A DNA stretch of 48,743 nt from a bacterium HR17 (lineage in GTDB: Bacteria; Armatimonadota; Fervidibacteria; Fervidibacterales; Fervidibacteraceae), in contig BEHT01000029.1 in the NCBI GenBank assembly GCA_002898575.1, forward strand, positions 1 through 48,743. The letters run 5' to 3'. Positions 1-6,662 of this stretch are shown piece after piece; position 1 is the first letter of the stretch; each line of letters opens with the position of its first letter. The translations under genes and the position numbers were made by a program. Below the pieces are notes generated by a model. The model ran no database searches and was not told the origin of the DNA. It worked only from the letters and a program-made list of their open reading frames with translations.

Positions 1-331
1 CAGAGAGCCGCCCTCCGAAGAGCCACCTTGTCGTTCGGAGGGCGTGTCTCTTGACGCGCCGTTTTTTCGGCGGCTCAGAGAGCCGCCCTCCGAAGAGCCA
101 CCTTGTCGTTCGGAGGGCGCGTCTCTTGACGCGCCGTTTTTTCGGCGGCTCAGAGAGCCGCCCTCCGAAGAGCCGCCTTGTCGTTCGGAGGGCGCGTCTC
201 TTGACGCGTCGTTTTTTCGGCGGCTCAGAGAGCCGCCCTCCGAAGAGCCGCCTTGTCGTTCGGAGGGCGCGTCTCCCGACGCGCCGCTGTTTGGCGGCTC
301 AGAGAGCCGCCCTCCGAAGAGCCGCCTTCCG
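1..331 (+). repeat. Tandem array of a 75-bp triple-hairpin repeat (array 1)
   Basis: Four and a half head-to-tail units start at 1, 76, 151, 226 and 300, so the period is 75 bp with one 74-bp unit. Each unit holds three nested palindromes: GGCGGCTC pairing with GAGCCGCC, CCCTCCGAA with TTCGGAGGG, and a GCGTC/GACGC arm. The copies differ by only a few substitutions. The array starts at the window edge and may extend further left. Small reading frames cross it only because 75 is a multiple of three, and I do not call them genes. The rest of the gap to 411 carries the tail TTTCAACACAGCA (about 348-360), which recurs beside related elements, and then the hyuA leader. Confidence 0.9.
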
Positions 332-411
332 ACCGAACACCATTGTTTCAACACAGCATTGGGGCTTTGTGAGATAGCCTGAGCCAACATTTTGGCGGGT
401 GAACGCGGACG

Positions 412-2412
412 ATGTTGGTCGGTGTGGACATCGGCGGGACTTTCACGGATGTGGTCGTGCTGACGGACGATGGGCAATGGCGTGTGCACAAGGTGTTGTC
501 AACGCCGCCGACATTTGAGCGCGGTGTCGCTGACGCATTGCGGCAGTTGCAATTGCCCGCTGGCTTTGTCGTCGTGCACGGGACGACGGTCGCCACCAAC
601 GCCGTGCTGGAACGCAAGGGGGCGGTGACGGCACTCGTCACGACGGACGGGTTTCGGGATGTTTTGGCGATTGGGCGGCAAACACGCCCCAACCTTTACA
701 CCCTTTGCGTGGAACGCCCCGACCCCATCGTGCCCTGCAAGCACCGTTTCACTGTCCGCGAACGCACCGCCGCCGATGGAACGGTGCTGATACCGCTGAA
801 CCCTGATGAAGCGGAGCGGGTTCTCCAAGCGGCGCGCCAAAGCCGTGCGGAAGCCATCGCTATCTGTCTGCTGTTTAGTTTCGCTAACCCCGCACACGAA
901 CGGATGTTGGCAAAAATCGCCCGTCGCTATCGTTGGTTCGTTTCTGTTTCGCACGAAGTTTTGCCTGAATTTCGCGAATACGAGCGGACAGCGACGACGG
1001 TGCTCAACGCTTTCGTCGGTCCTGTCATGAGCCGCTATTTGCAACGGTTACACCGTATCGTGCGGCGCTCTGGCGGGATGCAGTTTTGGGTGACGCAATC
1101 GTCTGGCGGCAGCGTGGCGCCGACATGGGTGCGGCGCTTTCCCGTCCACACGCTCTATTCGGGTCCCGCAGCGGGTGTCATCGGTGCATTGTTCATCGCC
1201 CAACAAGTCGGCTTTGAGCGCGTGTTGACGCTTGACATGGGCGGCACTTCCACCGATGTCGCGCTGTGCGTCGGCGCACCGACGGTCACGACGGAGAACG
1301 AAATCGGCGGGTTACCGTTGCGTGTGCCGTCCATCGCTATCCGCAGCATCGGTGCTGGAGGTGGGTCCATCGCATGGCTGGATGTGGGTGGGGCGTTACA
1401 AGTCGGCCCGCACAGCGCGGGGGCAAAGCCCGGTCCCGCATGCTACGGGTTCGGCGGGCAAGCGCCAACGGTCACCGACGCCAACTTGCTGTTGGGGCGG
1501 TTAGACCCTGAGCGGTTTTGGGGCGGGCGCTTGCGGCTGCGCCGCGATTTGGCGGAACGCGCTTTGACGCCATTGGCGCAGGAAATGAACGCCACTCTGC
1601 GCGACGCCGCAGAAGGCATCATCGCTGTCACCAACGCCAATATGGCACGGGCGTTGCTTTCGGTCAGCGCCGAACGCGGGCACGACCCACGCGAATTTGC
1701 CCTCGTCAGTTTCGGCGGCGCTGGCGGATTGCACGCGTGTTTGCTGGCAGAGTTGTTGGGAATCAGCACGGTGTTGCTGCCACCTTTTGCGGGCGCATTG
1801 TCGGCGTTGGGCGCGGTCGTCATGGACACGGTGCGCGATAGGGCGCAAACGATTGCGGCGCCGCTGGACACTGATGGCTTAACAAAAACTCAGCGCCTTG
1901 CCCAGCGGTTGGCAGAAAAAGGGCGCAAGGAACTGCGGCAGATGGGTTTTGCCGATGACCGCATCGCCGTGCAAGTGGCTTTGGACATGCGCTATCGCGG
2001 GCAGGGTCATGAGTTGACAGTGCCCGTGAGCGAATGGGGCGAAGGGGTAATCCGCGCGGCGTTTGAGCGGTTGCATCAACAGCGTTTCGGGCACATTTAC
2101 GCCGGTGCGGCAGTGGACATCGTGACGGTGCGGGTGCGGTGTATCGGTGTGCGCACCAAACCCTCGCTGCCGCGTTTGCCCCGTCGCAGAGCGGTTCGTC
2201 CGTCTGCCACCGTTGCGCTGTGGACCGGCAACGGTATCGTGGCAGCAGCGGTTTGGGAGCGGCAGCGGTTGGGTGCAGGCACCGTTTTGCGCGGTCCATG
2301 TCTGCTCGTGGACGAACACGCCACCGCTTATTTGCCGCCTGATTGGGCGGCAGAGGTGCATCCGACGGGATGCGTGATCGCGACGCCCGACAGGGCAACC
2401 GGTAGCAAGTAG
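412..2412 (+). CDS. hyuA: Hydantoinase/oxoprolinase family protein, HyuA-type subunit
   Basis: This 666-residue protein is an ATP-dependent hydantoinase/oxoprolinase A subunit, which in the family opens cyclic amides such as hydantoins or 5-oxoproline. The N-terminus GVDIGGTFTDVV is the phosphate-binding motif of the ASKHA fold. A second glycine-rich segment (LDMGGTSTDVAL, about residue 273) and the GAGGGSIAW segment (about 315) are typical of the core domain. Length is close to the family norm. The ATG at 412 has a GGCGGGTGA stretch just upstream. The usual B subunit (hyuB) is not adjacent; the next genes are a permease and an aldo/keto reductase. The substrate cannot be read from sequence. 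Confidence 0.9.
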   Translation: MLVGVDIGGTFTDVVVLTDDGQWRVHKVLSTPPTFERGVADALRQLQLPAGFVVVHGTTVATNAVLERKGAVTALVTTDGFRDVLAIGRQTRPNLYTLCVERPDPIVPCKHRFTVRERTAADGTVLIPLNPDEAERVLQAARQSRAEAIAICLLFSFANPAHERMLAKIARRYRWFVSVSHEVLPEFREYERTATTVLNAFVGPVMSRYLQRLHRIVRRSGGMQFWVTQSSGGSVAPTWVRRFPVHTLYSGPAAGVIGALFIAQQVGFERVLTLDMGGTSTDVALCVGAPTVTTENEIGGLPLRVPSIAIRSIGAGGGSIAWLDVGGALQVGPHSAGAKPGPACYGFGGQAPTVTDANLLLGRLDPERFWGGRLRLRRDLAERALTPLAQEMNATLRDAAEGIIAVTNANMARALLSVSAERGHDPREFALVSFGGAGGLHACLLAELLGISTVLLPPFAGALSALGAVVMDTVRDRAQTIAAPLDTDGLTKTQRLAQRLAEKGRKELRQMGFADDRIAVQVALDMRYRGQGHELTVPVSEWGEGVIRAAFERLHQQRFGHIYAGAAVDIVTVRVRCIGVRTKPSLPRLPRRRAVRPSATVALWTGNGIVAAAVWERQRLGAGTVLRGPCLLVDEHATAYLPPDWAAEVHPTGCVIATPDRATGSK

Positions 2413-2432
2413 GGGCGACCGACCTGTCGCCC
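2413..2432 (+). terminator. Hairpin directly after hyuA
   Basis: GGGCGAC (2413-2419) pairs perfectly with GTCGCCC (2426-2432) across a 6-nt loop, starting right after the hyuA stop codon. No T-run follows, so this is either a weak terminator or an mRNA-stabilising hairpin. Confidence 0.35.
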
Positions 2433-2486
2433 TCACAAACCCCATCCAAACTTAGCGCGCTGAGTGCAAAGGGGGCGAACAGTGCG

Positions 2487-2999
2487 ATGCTGTTGAGCAC
2501 GCTGCTGATCGCAGCGGTGACCGTCGGGCTGTTTTGCGCGGCGGCGTGGAAGGCGCAGGGCATTCCGACGCAAGCCCTGAAGGACGGTTGGCACACTTTC
2601 GTCACGACTTTCCCGTTGGTGTTCTGCGCCTTCTTGTGCGAAGGGCTTATCCGCTACTTAGTGCCGCCTGAATGGGTGCAAAAGTGGCTGGCAGCGGAAT
2701 CGGGTTGGCGCGGGATTGCCATCGGTTGCCTTGCAGGTGCATTGACGCCAGGCGGTCCCTACACGAGTTTCCCCATCGCGATGGTGCTGCTGAAAGCAGG
2801 CGCGGGCATCGGCACCGTCGTCGCTTACTTGACGGCGTGGCAGTTGTGGTCGTTCACGCGCTACCCGATGGAGATCGCCTTTGTCGGCGTGCCCATCACG
2901 CTGTTGCGGTTTGTCGTGACCTGTTTTGTGCCGCCGTTAGCAGGCTTTTTGGCGTATCGGCTGGCACAACTGGAAGCGCTGCGCACCGTTTTGCGCTGA
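2487..2999 (+). CDS. Small integral membrane permease (DUF318/ArsP-like)
   Basis: This 170-residue, strongly hydrophobic protein has about four to five membrane spans. The stretch GALTPGGPYTSFPIAMVLLK followed by an AGAGIGT segment resembles the half-permeases of the DUF318/ArsP-like group, where a proline/glycine-rich turn enters a re-entrant helix. It is about half the length of full DUF318 permeases, so it may act as a dimer. An AAAGGGGGCG ribosome site precedes the ATG. It lies 74 bp after hyuA and 22 bp before an aldo/keto reductase, so co-transcription is likely. The substrate is unknown and the family call is tentative. Confidence 0.65.
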   Translation: MLLSTLLIAAVTVGLFCAAAWKAQGIPTQALKDGWHTFVTTFPLVFCAFLCEGLIRYLVPPEWVQKWLAAESGWRGIAIGCLAGALTPGGPYTSFPIAMVLLKAGAGIGTVVAYLTAWQLWSFTRYPMEIAFVGVPITLLRFVVTCFVPPLAGFLAYRLAQLEALRTVLR

Positions 3000-3021
3000 C
3001 GAAAGGGGGAGCGAAATAGGG

Positions 3022-3867
3022 ATGGAGTATCGCCCACTGGGACGGACGGGGTTGACGGTCTCGGCACTGTGTTTTGGCTGTTGGGAAATTGGTGGGCTGT
3101 TCTGGGGGCGCATTGACGCCAAAAAGGCGGTTAATTTGATCCGCCACGCTGTGGACTTGGGCGTGACGACTTTTGACACTGCCGATGTTTACGGCAACGG
3201 ACGCTCAGAGGTCATCTTGGGATTTGCGTTGCGCCATGTCCGCGACAAAGTCGTCATCGTCACTAAAGCGGGCTACCAAGTCGGCGCCGACGGCGCCCAA
3301 TCGCTCTATGTTGACGCGCAAGGCTTCGTGGACCAGCGCTTTGACCCGGACTATTTGCGATGGCAATGCGAATTGAGTTTGTGGCGGTTGCGGTGCGACT
3401 ATGTGGATGTGTTTTTGCTGCACGACCCCAGCGTGGAAATCGTGGAGCGCGATGAGCCCTTTGAGGCGCTGCACCGACTCAAGCGGGAAGGCAAAGCGCG
3501 GGCGGTGGGCATTTCGTCGTCGGTGGCAGCGTGTCGTCGCGCCATTGAGCGGGGCGTCGTGGAAGTTGTAGAGTGCGGGTTCAACTTTTTGCAGACAGAA
3601 GCGAAAGAGCAATTGTTTGCGCTGGCGGTAGAAAAAGGCGTCGGGGTGCTCGCCCGCAGCCCATTTGCGGGTGGGCGACTGTTTGCGCCGGAGCATGCCG
3701 AAAAGTTGCGGGCGTTGGTGCCCCATCTGCCGTTGCCTGAAGCCGCCGTCAAGTTCGTCCTTGCGCATCCGCAGGTCAGCAGTTGCGTGACGGGAATCAT
3801 GAGGCTGCGGGAATTACGCCAAAACGCCCGCGCCGCCGAACCGCCTTACCTTACGCTACCATCGTAA
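3022..3867 (+). CDS. Aldo/keto reductase
   Basis: This 281-residue NAD(P)H-dependent oxidoreductase of the AKR superfamily folds as a TIM barrel. The N-terminus MEYRPLGRTGLTVSALCFG is the standard opening of the bacterial subfamily. FDTADVYGNGRSE (about residues 52-64) carries the catalytic Asp and Tyr, and VDVFLLHDP supplies the His region. The end is slightly short compared with the common 300-330 residues. AAAGGGGGAG lies just upstream of the ATG. The substrate is unknown. Last intact gene of the hyuA-permease-AKR run before a broken regulator gene. Confidence 0.9.
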   Translation: MEYRPLGRTGLTVSALCFGCWEIGGLFWGRIDAKKAVNLIRHAVDLGVTTFDTADVYGNGRSEVILGFALRHVRDKVVIVTKAGYQVGADGAQSLYVDAQGFVDQRFDPDYLRWQCELSLWRLRCDYVDVFLLHDPSVEIVERDEPFEALHRLKREGKARAVGISSSVAACRRAIERGVVEVVECGFNFLQTEAKEQLFALAVEKGVGVLARSPFAGGRLFAPEHAEKLRALVPHLPLPEAAVKFVLAHPQVSSCVTGIMRLRELRQNARAAEPPYLTLPS

Positions 3868-3925
3868 GGGTGCGGCATGGCGCGCGCCACCAGCAAGCGT
3901 TGCGTTTTGTCGTGAGGGTTTAGCG

Positions 3926-4231
3926 GTGAAGAAAGCGCTGACGGCGCAAGCGGAGCGTTGGTATTTGAGCCGCGTGAACTTGTTCGCCGATTTGGCGCCC
4001 GATGAACTGAGCGTTATCAACGCTGCCGCGCAACCGCTACGGCTTCTGTGGGGCGATGCCATTTTCTTGAAAGGGGAAGGAATTGCCCCTCGCGTTGATT
4101 TGCCCCAAAGACATCTTCGGCATGTTACCGCTATTTGGCAGCACAGTGCAGACCTACGATGCGAGCGCCCTCAGCGATTGGCAAAGCAACACGGATTGCG
4201 GGCACGGTTGGGTGTGCGTATCAGCTCTCTT
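3926..4231 (+). pseudogene. Crp/Fnr-type cyclic-nucleotide-binding regulator remnant
   Basis: The first about 50 codons read WYLSRVNLFADLAPDELSVI and continue to GDAIFLKGEG, a recognisable start of a cNMP-binding domain of Crp/Fnr regulators. The expected continuation then fails. In another frame from about 4099 the sequence reads PKDIFGMLPLFGSTVQTYDA, which matches the later phosphate-binding-cassette part of the same domain. The gene has therefore lost an internal piece, shifted frame and lost its C-terminal helix-turn-helix. The sequence runs directly into the hairpin repeat array at 4232, which may have caused or followed the break. Confidence 0.75.
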
Positions 4232-4540
4232 GAGCCGCTGAACAGCGGCGCGTCAGGAGACGCGCCCTCCGAACGACAAGGTGGCTCTCGGAGGGCGGCT
4301 CTCCTGAGCCGCCAAACAACGGCGCGTCAAGAGACGCGCCCTCCGAACGACAAGGTGGCTCTCGGAGGGCGGCTCTCCTGAGCCGCCAAACAACGGCGCG
4401 TCAAGAGACGCGCCCTCCGAACGACAAGGTGGCTCTCGGAGTGCGGCTCTCCTGAGCCGCCGCAAAGAAATCGGCGCGTCAGAGACGCGCCCTCCGAACG
4501 ACAAGGTGGCTCTCGGAGGGCGGCTCTCTGAGCCGCCGAA
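4232..4540 (-). repeat. Tandem array of the triple-hairpin repeat, inverted (array 2)
   Basis: Units begin at about 4232, 4306, 4380, 4454 and 4530 (periods 74, 74, 74, 76). The sequence is the reverse complement of array 1, with the same arms GGCGCGTC/GACGCGCC, CCCTCCGA/TCGGAGGG and GGCGGCTC/GAGCCGCC. It truncates the Crp-like gene on its left. The stretch from 4541 to the cytochrome gene at 4779 has no credible reading frame or recognised RNA. With array 1 it brackets about 3.9 kb (332-4231) in inverted orientation. Confidence 0.9.
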
Positions 4541-4778
4541 AAAACTGCCGAAAGGGTAACTCAACAAAGCAAGCGAATTGCGCCGTGACAGGGATCGCTT
4601 ACGACCATCAGCCCATTCGCATCTGTCCTCATCTGCGATTTGCCCTCCTTGCGGCGGCTTGGCAAGGTTTGTAATCTGGCTTACAGCGCCCGTCGGTTCA
4701 GCGACGCCATCCTGAAGGCGGAACAAAACTGTCGTAGATGGCGCTTGAAATGTTTGGGAGCGACGGAAGGTGACGGCG

Positions 4779-5579
4779 ATGCTGCAGGCGCTGCGCCGAT
4801 GGGGGCTGGTCATCGTGTTGGTCGCCGAAAATGTGGCGCTCTTGACGGCGTGGGGCGTCGCCCGATGGCGGCAAGGCAGCGTCGCTTCTGTGGAACGGGG
4901 CAAGCACATCGCGGAACGGTTGGGCTGCTTCACTTGTCACGGACCAGGTGGCATTCGTGGCGTCGCATTTGCCAAACGCCCCCAATGGGATTGCCCGCCA
5001 TGGGATGGGGGAACAGCGATGATGTATGTCCGCGATGAAAGCGAAATCGCCGAATGGATTCTGGACGGCGCGCCCAAACGGTTGCGGGAAAGCACCAATT
5101 ACCAACGAGAGCGCAAAGAGCGGTTGGTGAACATGCCCGCTTATCGGGGCGTTATTAAGGACGACGAGTTACGCGATTTAGTTGCCTACTGGAAAGCCGT
5201 TGCCGAGTGGCAAATGCCTCCCGATGACCCGCAAGCGGCAAAAGGTTATCAAGTCGCCAAGCAAAGCGGCTGCTTTGCCTGTCACGGGGCGGGGGGCAGA
5301 GGTTCGCCGCCCAACCCCGGTTCGTTCAAGGGCTACATTCCTGCATGGGGCAGCGCCGATTTCACCGAGTTGGTGCGCGATGAGGCGGAATTGGAGCAGT
5401 GGATTTTGGACGGCGTAAGTGAGCGCTTTCGCAAAAATCCAGCGGCGCAATTTTTCCTGCGCCGAGCGCCCATCAAAATGCCTGCCTATCGGGGCTATCT
5501 GAACCGTGACGAAGTGGAGGCGCTCAAAGCCTACATCCATTGGCTACGGCAGCGGACCCGCCCATCGGCGGGGCGTTAA
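4779..5579 (+). CDS. Membrane-anchored di-haem cytochrome c
   Basis: This 266-residue electron-transfer protein has an N-terminal membrane helix (about residues 8-27) that would hold it on the outer face of the membrane. Two covalent haem sites are visible: C50-F-T-C-H54 and C165-F-A-C-H169. Each is followed some 60-75 residues later by MPAYRG, whose Met is the likely distal ligand. The protein is therefore an internal duplication of one class-I-like domain. I prefer the ATG at 4779, because GGAAGG sits at proper spacing; a GTG at 4770 is in frame but too close to it. The gene pairs with the next small exported protein, 27 bp downstream. The redox partner is unknown. Confidence 0.88.
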   Translation: MLQALRRWGLVIVLVAENVALLTAWGVARWRQGSVASVERGKHIAERLGCFTCHGPGGIRGVAFAKRPQWDCPPWDGGTAMMYVRDESEIAEWILDGAPKRLRESTNYQRERKERLVNMPAYRGVIKDDELRDLVAYWKAVAEWQMPPDDPQAAKGYQVAKQSGCFACHGAGGRGSPPNPGSFKGYIPAWGSADFTELVRDEAELEQWILDGVSERFRKNPAAQFFLRRAPIKMPAYRGYLNRDEVEALKAYIHWLRQRTRPSAGR

Positions 5580-6565: not shown

Positions 6566-6627
6566 CTCGGAGGGCGTGTCTTTTGATGCGCCGTTTTTTT
6601 CGGCGGCTCAGGAGAGCCGCCCTCCGA
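6566..6627 (+). repeat. Single partial copy of the triple-hairpin repeat
   Basis: This copy holds CTCGGAGGGCG, then a GATGCGCC arm, a T-run and GGCGGCTC-AGGA-GAGCCGCC followed by CTCCGA. It is a truncated and slightly diverged unit in the same orientation as array 1. It is followed at about 6641-6654 by TTTCCTCAACACAG, the tail also seen after array 1. Confidence 0.8.
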
Positions 6628-6662
6628 TCAAGCCCCATTTCCTCAACACAGCAGTGCACGGC

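Follow-up and report, generated by a model that had tools for sequence, protein, structure and literature searches.

The window analyzed here is the whole 48,743-nt stretch of contig BEHT01000029.1 from the bacterium HR17 (Armatimonadota), near whose left end two tandem arrays of a hairpin-forming unit lie in opposite orientation on either side of a hyuA-like gene, a permease gene and an aldo/keto reductase (AKR) gene. We consider it probable that both arrays represent a non-autonomous element of the miniature inverted-repeat transposable element (MITE) type, ~134 bp in its simple form, that was mobilized in trans and whose copies here have been amplified internally. A staggered-cutting transposase, now lost or unrecognized, would have moved the element in trans via its ends, and at many sites the hairpin doublet, its inner spacer reduced from ~23 to ~7-14 nt, would then have been copied locally, whether through slippage, unequal exchange or rolling replication. 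Local copying of this kind would yield arrays whose units agree within each locus but vary from one locus to the next, and the hyuA-permease-AKR segment would merely lie between two independent insertions.

The arrays had been described in an earlier note, made from the letters of the window, as tandem at both sites and inverted relative to each other, and both properties are real: Tandem Repeats Finder (TRF) delimited array 1 at 1-328 (period 75, 96% matches) and array 2 at 4224-4545 (period 74, 92% matches), and the two have opposite orientation with 75-nt arms that are 85-88% complementary. The further description of three hairpins per unit was correct only for two of them. All six single units or strands that were folded gave z scores of -4.2 to -5.6 (none of 200 shuffles was equally stable), and each unit has two strong hairpins with 8-bp stems, R1 (GGAG-GGCGGCTC-loop-GAGCCGCC) and, facing it, R2 (GGAG-GGYGYRTC-loop-GAYRCRCC). 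The supposed third hairpin amounts to weak pairing between the CTCC tag of one doublet and the GGAG tag of its neighbor, across a loop of ~15-20 nt that is the linker.

The genome to which the window belongs (G000 in our numbering, in which contigs and loci are given as C and L; 3.15 Mb in 75 contigs, 96% complete, the window being C29) contains the unit many times. The 75-bp unit had 202 matches, and R1 with a perfect stem occurred at 348 exact sites, as opposed to none in the reversed control, so the repeat is not unique to this locus; dozens of arrays are present, in both orientations. The open frames in array 1 were rejected as coding sequences, given that the length of the array unit differs between loci (~63 to 103 bp) and the frames are not kept. 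In 35 array loci (L032-L066), using hairpin patterns that tolerate 2 changes in 12 and hence favor the consensus, 204 R1 and 204 R2 hairpins were counted, of which 203 and 193, respectively, bear the GGAG tag. Neighboring hairpins at these loci were inversely oriented and alternating in 352 of 363 pairs (11 were not), and both inner and outer spacers were mostly uniform within arrays while differing between arrays. Truly solitary R1 hairpins, without ends, amounted to two of the 196 tested (L102 and L110); three more that were flagged by the script proved to be array edges. The solitary R1 at L102:1366-1389 is situated between direct repeats of ~24 bp (TACGAACTTTGGCTGGAGACTGAAC). Two further loci deviate from the common plan: an aberrant array at L058 (G000:C16:21544-22318) has two consecutive R2 hairpins and the linker GAAGGGAAAAACATT four times, and at L120 (C16) one element copy is found twice, at 4004-4075 and 5159-5230, ~1.15 kb apart with identical near flanks and among GTAG repeats, which is probably a segmental duplication. 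A unit was present within 200 nt of the end in 18 of the 24 contig ends examined, and four pairs of these ends overlap by 93-99 bases. With at least 18 of the 150 contig ends of the assembly so placed, the arrays evidently break the assembly and are therefore undercounted.

Dispersed single doublets share sequence far beyond the hairpins, comprising a left end (LE; TGCTGTGTTGAAtAATGGGGTTTGGTC), a right end (RE; GAGGCACTGCCGAAAGGAAAATTCAACAAAGCA) and, between the hairpins, an inner spacer of ~23 nt. The simple element of ~134 bp accordingly reads LE, GGAG-R1, an A-rich spacer, R2-CTCC and RE, and the termini of LE and RE are inverted repeats, with TGCTKTGTTGAA at both ends. Arrays bear the same ends as single-doublet copies and can be written LE-(doublet)n-RE whatever n, from 1 to 15 doublets (89 clusters held 0 to 15). 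Within three edits, LE was found in 44 of 68 clusters, RE in 35 and both in 26; some clusters clearly have neither end, and contig ends and decay explain part of the remainder. The terminal repeat TGCTKTGTTGAA by itself occurs at 46 sites genome-wide, compared with 2 for the reversed control. Another 20 loci contain 23 sites of this repeat, of which 20 were flagged as adjoining R1 or R2 hairpins, the unflagged ones being L128:6154, L133 (where an R1 was seen by eye) and L140:870; only L128:6154 and L140:870 are thus exact terminal repeats without an element.

Target duplications flank a subset of the elements. When the register was left free, a score of at least 8 was reached by 5 of 24 elements and by 0.7% of cross-pairings. 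With the register fixed at 8, at least 7 of 8 bases matched at 7 of 29 unique intervals and at none of 812 cross-pairings, and register 9 added two further intervals with at least 8 of 9 matches, again with 0/812 cross-pairings. Registers 7 and 10 gave no intervals, and register 6 gave two, compared with 8 of 812 cross-pairings. Further cases are TCAACCGCT at C26/C10 (9/9), L047 (9/9), L044 (8/8) and C46/C29 (7/8). The duplications point to staggered cutting. Short, non-coding and high in copy number, with terminal inverted repeats and with duplications of 8 or 9 bp (9 of 29 intervals versus 0 of 812 cross-pairings), the element has the properties of a MITE, apart from an autonomous partner with the same ends, for which the two transposase families searched gave no candidate. 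The suggestion in the earlier note of extragenic palindromic elements spreading in trans is supported by the 348 exact R1 sites, the shared inverted ends and the 8-9-bp duplications on a subset.

The manner in which arrays grew can be judged from their spacers and linkers. Among 23 single-doublet clusters, 14 had an inner spacer of 22-28 nt, whereas this spacer measured 6-15 nt in 228 of the 229 doublets belonging to clusters with at least three doublets, and doublets were more similar within loci (0.941) than between loci (0.838). Of 88 distinct outer linkers, not counting those of the window, 52 exceeded the 95th percentile of shuffles in their similarity to a head-to-tail junction of RE and LE (mean 0.23 versus -0.15). 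The shortening of the spacer in arrays, taken together with outer linkers that look like RE-to-LE junctions, suggests that a shortened unit was duplicated locally.

The features of the window that relate to the arrays, and the genes beside them, are as follows.

1-330, minus strand: array 1, cut by the contig end, with four full R1-R2 doublets (hairpins 37-315), a partial fifth and a degenerate R1 start.
331-358, minus strand: LE of the array-1 element, with the terminal inverted repeat TGCTGTGTTGAA at 347-358.
359-366, minus strand: putative target-site duplication copy, AGCCCCAA, whose partner on C46 is AACCCCAA (7/8).
412-2412, plus strand: hyuA-like hydantoinase/oxoprolinase (PF05378, PF01968, PF19278), between the arrays and outside the element.
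2487-2999, plus strand: ArsP_1-type permease (PF03773, barely above the cut-off at 33.1 versus 32.3 bits), outside the element.
3022-3867, plus strand: AKR (PF00248), outside the element.
4224-4537, plus strand: array 2, with ~4 R1-R2 doublets and its left end cut within R1.
4538-4571, plus strand: RE of the array-2 element, with the terminal repeat CTCAACAAAGCA at 4560-4571.
6569-6625, minus strand: single-doublet element copy, the third copy in the window and absent from the earlier note.
6626-6653, minus strand: LE of the single-doublet copy, with TGCTGTGTTGAG at 6642-6653.

The window begins at a contig end (C29:1), inside array 1. The last 99 bases of contig C46 are identical to window positions 1-99, and that contig provides the other end of the array-1 element, whose flanks read AGCCCCAA on the minus strand of the window and AACCCCAA at the C46 end, matching at 7 of 8 bases. 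The complete array-1 element would therefore be ~504 bp with at least six doublets, of which the assembler may have collapsed copies. An open reading frame (ORF) at 3926-4228, with no Pfam match, runs into array 2 at the side on which that array has no left end, and it might be a decayed gene. No transposase was recognized near the arrays, as the earlier note had stated, and Rfam had no match anywhere in the window.

The GGAG doublet was also sought in other genomes, and other members of the Armatimonadota have it as well. Among 61 genomes a DNA search with the unit matched in G000 only, and a covariance model of the doublet gave matches in nine, G000 included; the filter for this model is strict and may lose weak matches, and matches above ~1e-5 are weak. 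There were 2 matches in G001 and 11 in G002, both of the same genus as G000, and 19 rows in G004 (same order), some of which represent both strands of one place; the others were in G007, G021, G034 and G045, which belong to one genus of another family, and in G055. In G004, loci L148 and L151 have the compensated stem GGTGGCTC/GAGCCACC, and L150 and L152 are more changed, all with other flanks. At L160-L163, L168, L169 and L174 (G007, G021, G034 and G045) there are GGAG doublets of which several have a symmetrical mid-stem GA/GA mismatch, and some of these genomes have multiple copies. Since GGAG doublets occur with other flanks elsewhere, the doublet is, judged by these comparisons, older than, or separable from, the LE and RE ends and wider in distribution than the G000 element. 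The exact terminal repeat was found at three sites in G001-G004, none of them an element. A pattern search of named genomes, from which records of the lineage itself may be left out, returned five single matches in unrelated bacteria that look like chance.

Several observations weigh against a MITE-like element mobilized in trans. At 20 of the 29 intervals there was no clear target duplication, for which our account is decay or false pairing of ends. GGAG doublets in G004 and G002 have flanks that differ from those in G000, and no empty site was demonstrable in congeners that are ~72% identical over aligned genes or fragmentary. With respect to the mover, the genome has no protein with PF01609 (DDE_Tnp_1) or PF00872 (Transposase_mut), other transposase families not having been searched, and no insertion sequence was recognized at the exact terminal repeat TGCTKTGTTGAA in the 20 fetched loci.

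The alternative that survives best, although we think it unlikely, is that the GGAG hairpins are repetitive extragenic palindromic (REP) sequences, or bacterial interspersed mosaic elements (BIMEs), moved by a REP-associated tyrosine transposase (RAYT; an HUH tyrosine transposase) nicking at GGAG, with the ends and duplications being secondary and the RAYT lost or unassembled. The doublets, the unpaired tetranucleotide tag, the alternating inversion, the high copy number and the intergenic arrays all fit REPs and BIMEs as described in the literature (PMC2817692, PMC3733652). Doublets with other flanks in other genomes also agree with this alternative. A REP-associated transposase of the kind that the earlier note proposed to look for does exist in the genome, as its sole Y1_Tnp protein is a genuine RAYT (NCBIfam NF047646, 122 bits against a cut-off of 80), but its locus (C41, L031) has 13 GTAG-tagged hairpins and no GGAG-tagged ones, with the reservation that in a 96%-complete assembly another gene could be missed. 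Moreover, G001-G004 have no Y1_Tnp protein, yet GGAG doublets are present in G001, G002 and G004, and solitary hairpins are almost absent (2 of 196). The 8-9-bp duplications observed here are also not expected of IS200/RAYT-type transposition; enzymes of that type are not known to make staggered cuts or to leave 8-9-bp target duplications.

The RAYT gene itself is placed within GTAG doublets (GGTAGCGTCGTCC.../...CGTCGGGG CTACC) in a REPtron at L031 (G000:C41:27843-30869); the end of C41 overlaps the start of C16 by 99 bases. A genome-wide search for GTAG doublets gave 36 matches, most of them on C41, C16 and C5. This GTAG REP family shares the two-stem inverted doublet plan of the GGAG family (GGTAG-CGTCGTCC.../...CGTCGGGG-CTACC) but differs from it in tag and stems. 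Two candidates in other genomes for a RAYT flanked by GGAG hairpins were unconvincing: at L093 the hairpins form an inverted pair but the tag is inside a longer perfect palindrome, and at L095 there are three copies in the same direction within a longer repeat.

A second alternative, which we regard as quite improbable, is that the doublets, whatever spread them, are kept mainly for a role in RNA or in the chromosome, such as stabilization of transcript ends, termination or gyrase binding. The stems have indeed remained paired through two-sided changes. In 64 doublets aligned for diversity (60 from G000, four of the 64 chosen there having been left out, and 4 from G004), 97.6% of stem cells hold standard pairs and 8 of the 20 stem pairs have two-sided changes; there were 36 two-sided cells versus 10.2 in shuffles (none of 500 had as many) and at most 5 in slid controls. 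However, a replicating element or one based on single-stranded DNA would likewise keep its stems paired. The pairing intermediates of R1, on the R1 strand, were 27 G.T and 11 A.C, which would suit a role in RNA, but those of R2 on the same strand were 32 and 32, and there was no clear strand preference when R1 and R2 were taken together. Crude longest-ORF calls around 89 elements gave 41 between co-directional genes, of which 30 run R1-to-R2 along both genes and 11 against them, consistent with a transcriptional role, which is possible; on the other side, convergent (11) and divergent (9) gene pairs were about equally occupied, the remainder of the 89 being incomplete.

The weakest alternative, that the inverted arrays act as a switch that flips the 3.9-kb hyuA-permease-AKR segment, is highly improbable. 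In its favor, the two arrays stand ~4 kb apart in opposite orientation, and their 75-nt arms are 85-88% identical. Against it, dozens of arrays exist in both orientations, so that one inverted pair is to be expected without any function; the arrays have no associated invertase and resemble separate insertions; and G003 (same family) has its permease and moeB oriented relative to each other as in the window, ~1 kb apart there and 8 kb here. The stretches fetched from relatives contained neither hyuA nor AKR. Inversion of 332-4231 is therefore not supported, there being nothing in its favor beyond the geometry.

A MITE-like element with an amplifying middle module has counterparts of similar architecture, and we compared it with these. 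BOX of Streptococcus pneumoniae, boxA-(boxB)n-boxC (PMC3049150), is also dispersed and MITE-like, and in it, too, structured middle modules repeat in tandem, in varying number, between end modules that differ from them; the element described here is GC-rich and its middle is a GGAG-tagged double hairpin. The likeness is architectural only. BrickBuilt of Porphyromonas gingivalis, a minisatellite inside a MITE, shares the arrangement leader-(tandem repeat)n-tail, the short terminal inverted repeats, the intergenic location and the lack of its own transposase, but its repeat is 23 nt and spacerless with 19 copies in one genome, as opposed to double-hairpin units of ~63-103 nt and hundreds of hairpins here (PMC4596501). 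With REPs, BIMEs and REPINs, the doublets have in common inverted hairpin pairs with tetranucleotide tags that alternate in clusters at high copy number; they differ in that the tag is GGAG rather than GTAG or CGTC, that terminal inverted repeats and target duplications flank them, and that they are not linked to the sole RAYT (PMC2817692, PMC3733652). No word beginning with GGAG occurs in the main text of either of those papers (figures were outside the search), and open-access PMC text, figures aside, contained no paper on repetitive extragenic elements in Armatimonadetes and none that joins GGAG, REP sequences and RAYT. We class the element as MITE-like, with a BIME-like middle module, and not as a REP, because its tag and the lack of a recognized cognate RAYT both depart from that class.

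More tentatively, the GGAG doublets may constitute a third super-family of tagged palindromes beside GTAG and CGTC, present in several lineages of Armatimonadota and captured here between MITE ends, so that a hairpin module of the RAYT type would have become the cargo of a staggered-cutting transposase and amplified into arrays. The element joins two kinds of repeat that are usually separate, REP-like hairpin doublets and MITEs with terminal inverted repeats, target duplications and internal tandem amplification, and it illustrates a way in which arrays of the BIME type could expand when no cognate RAYT is present.

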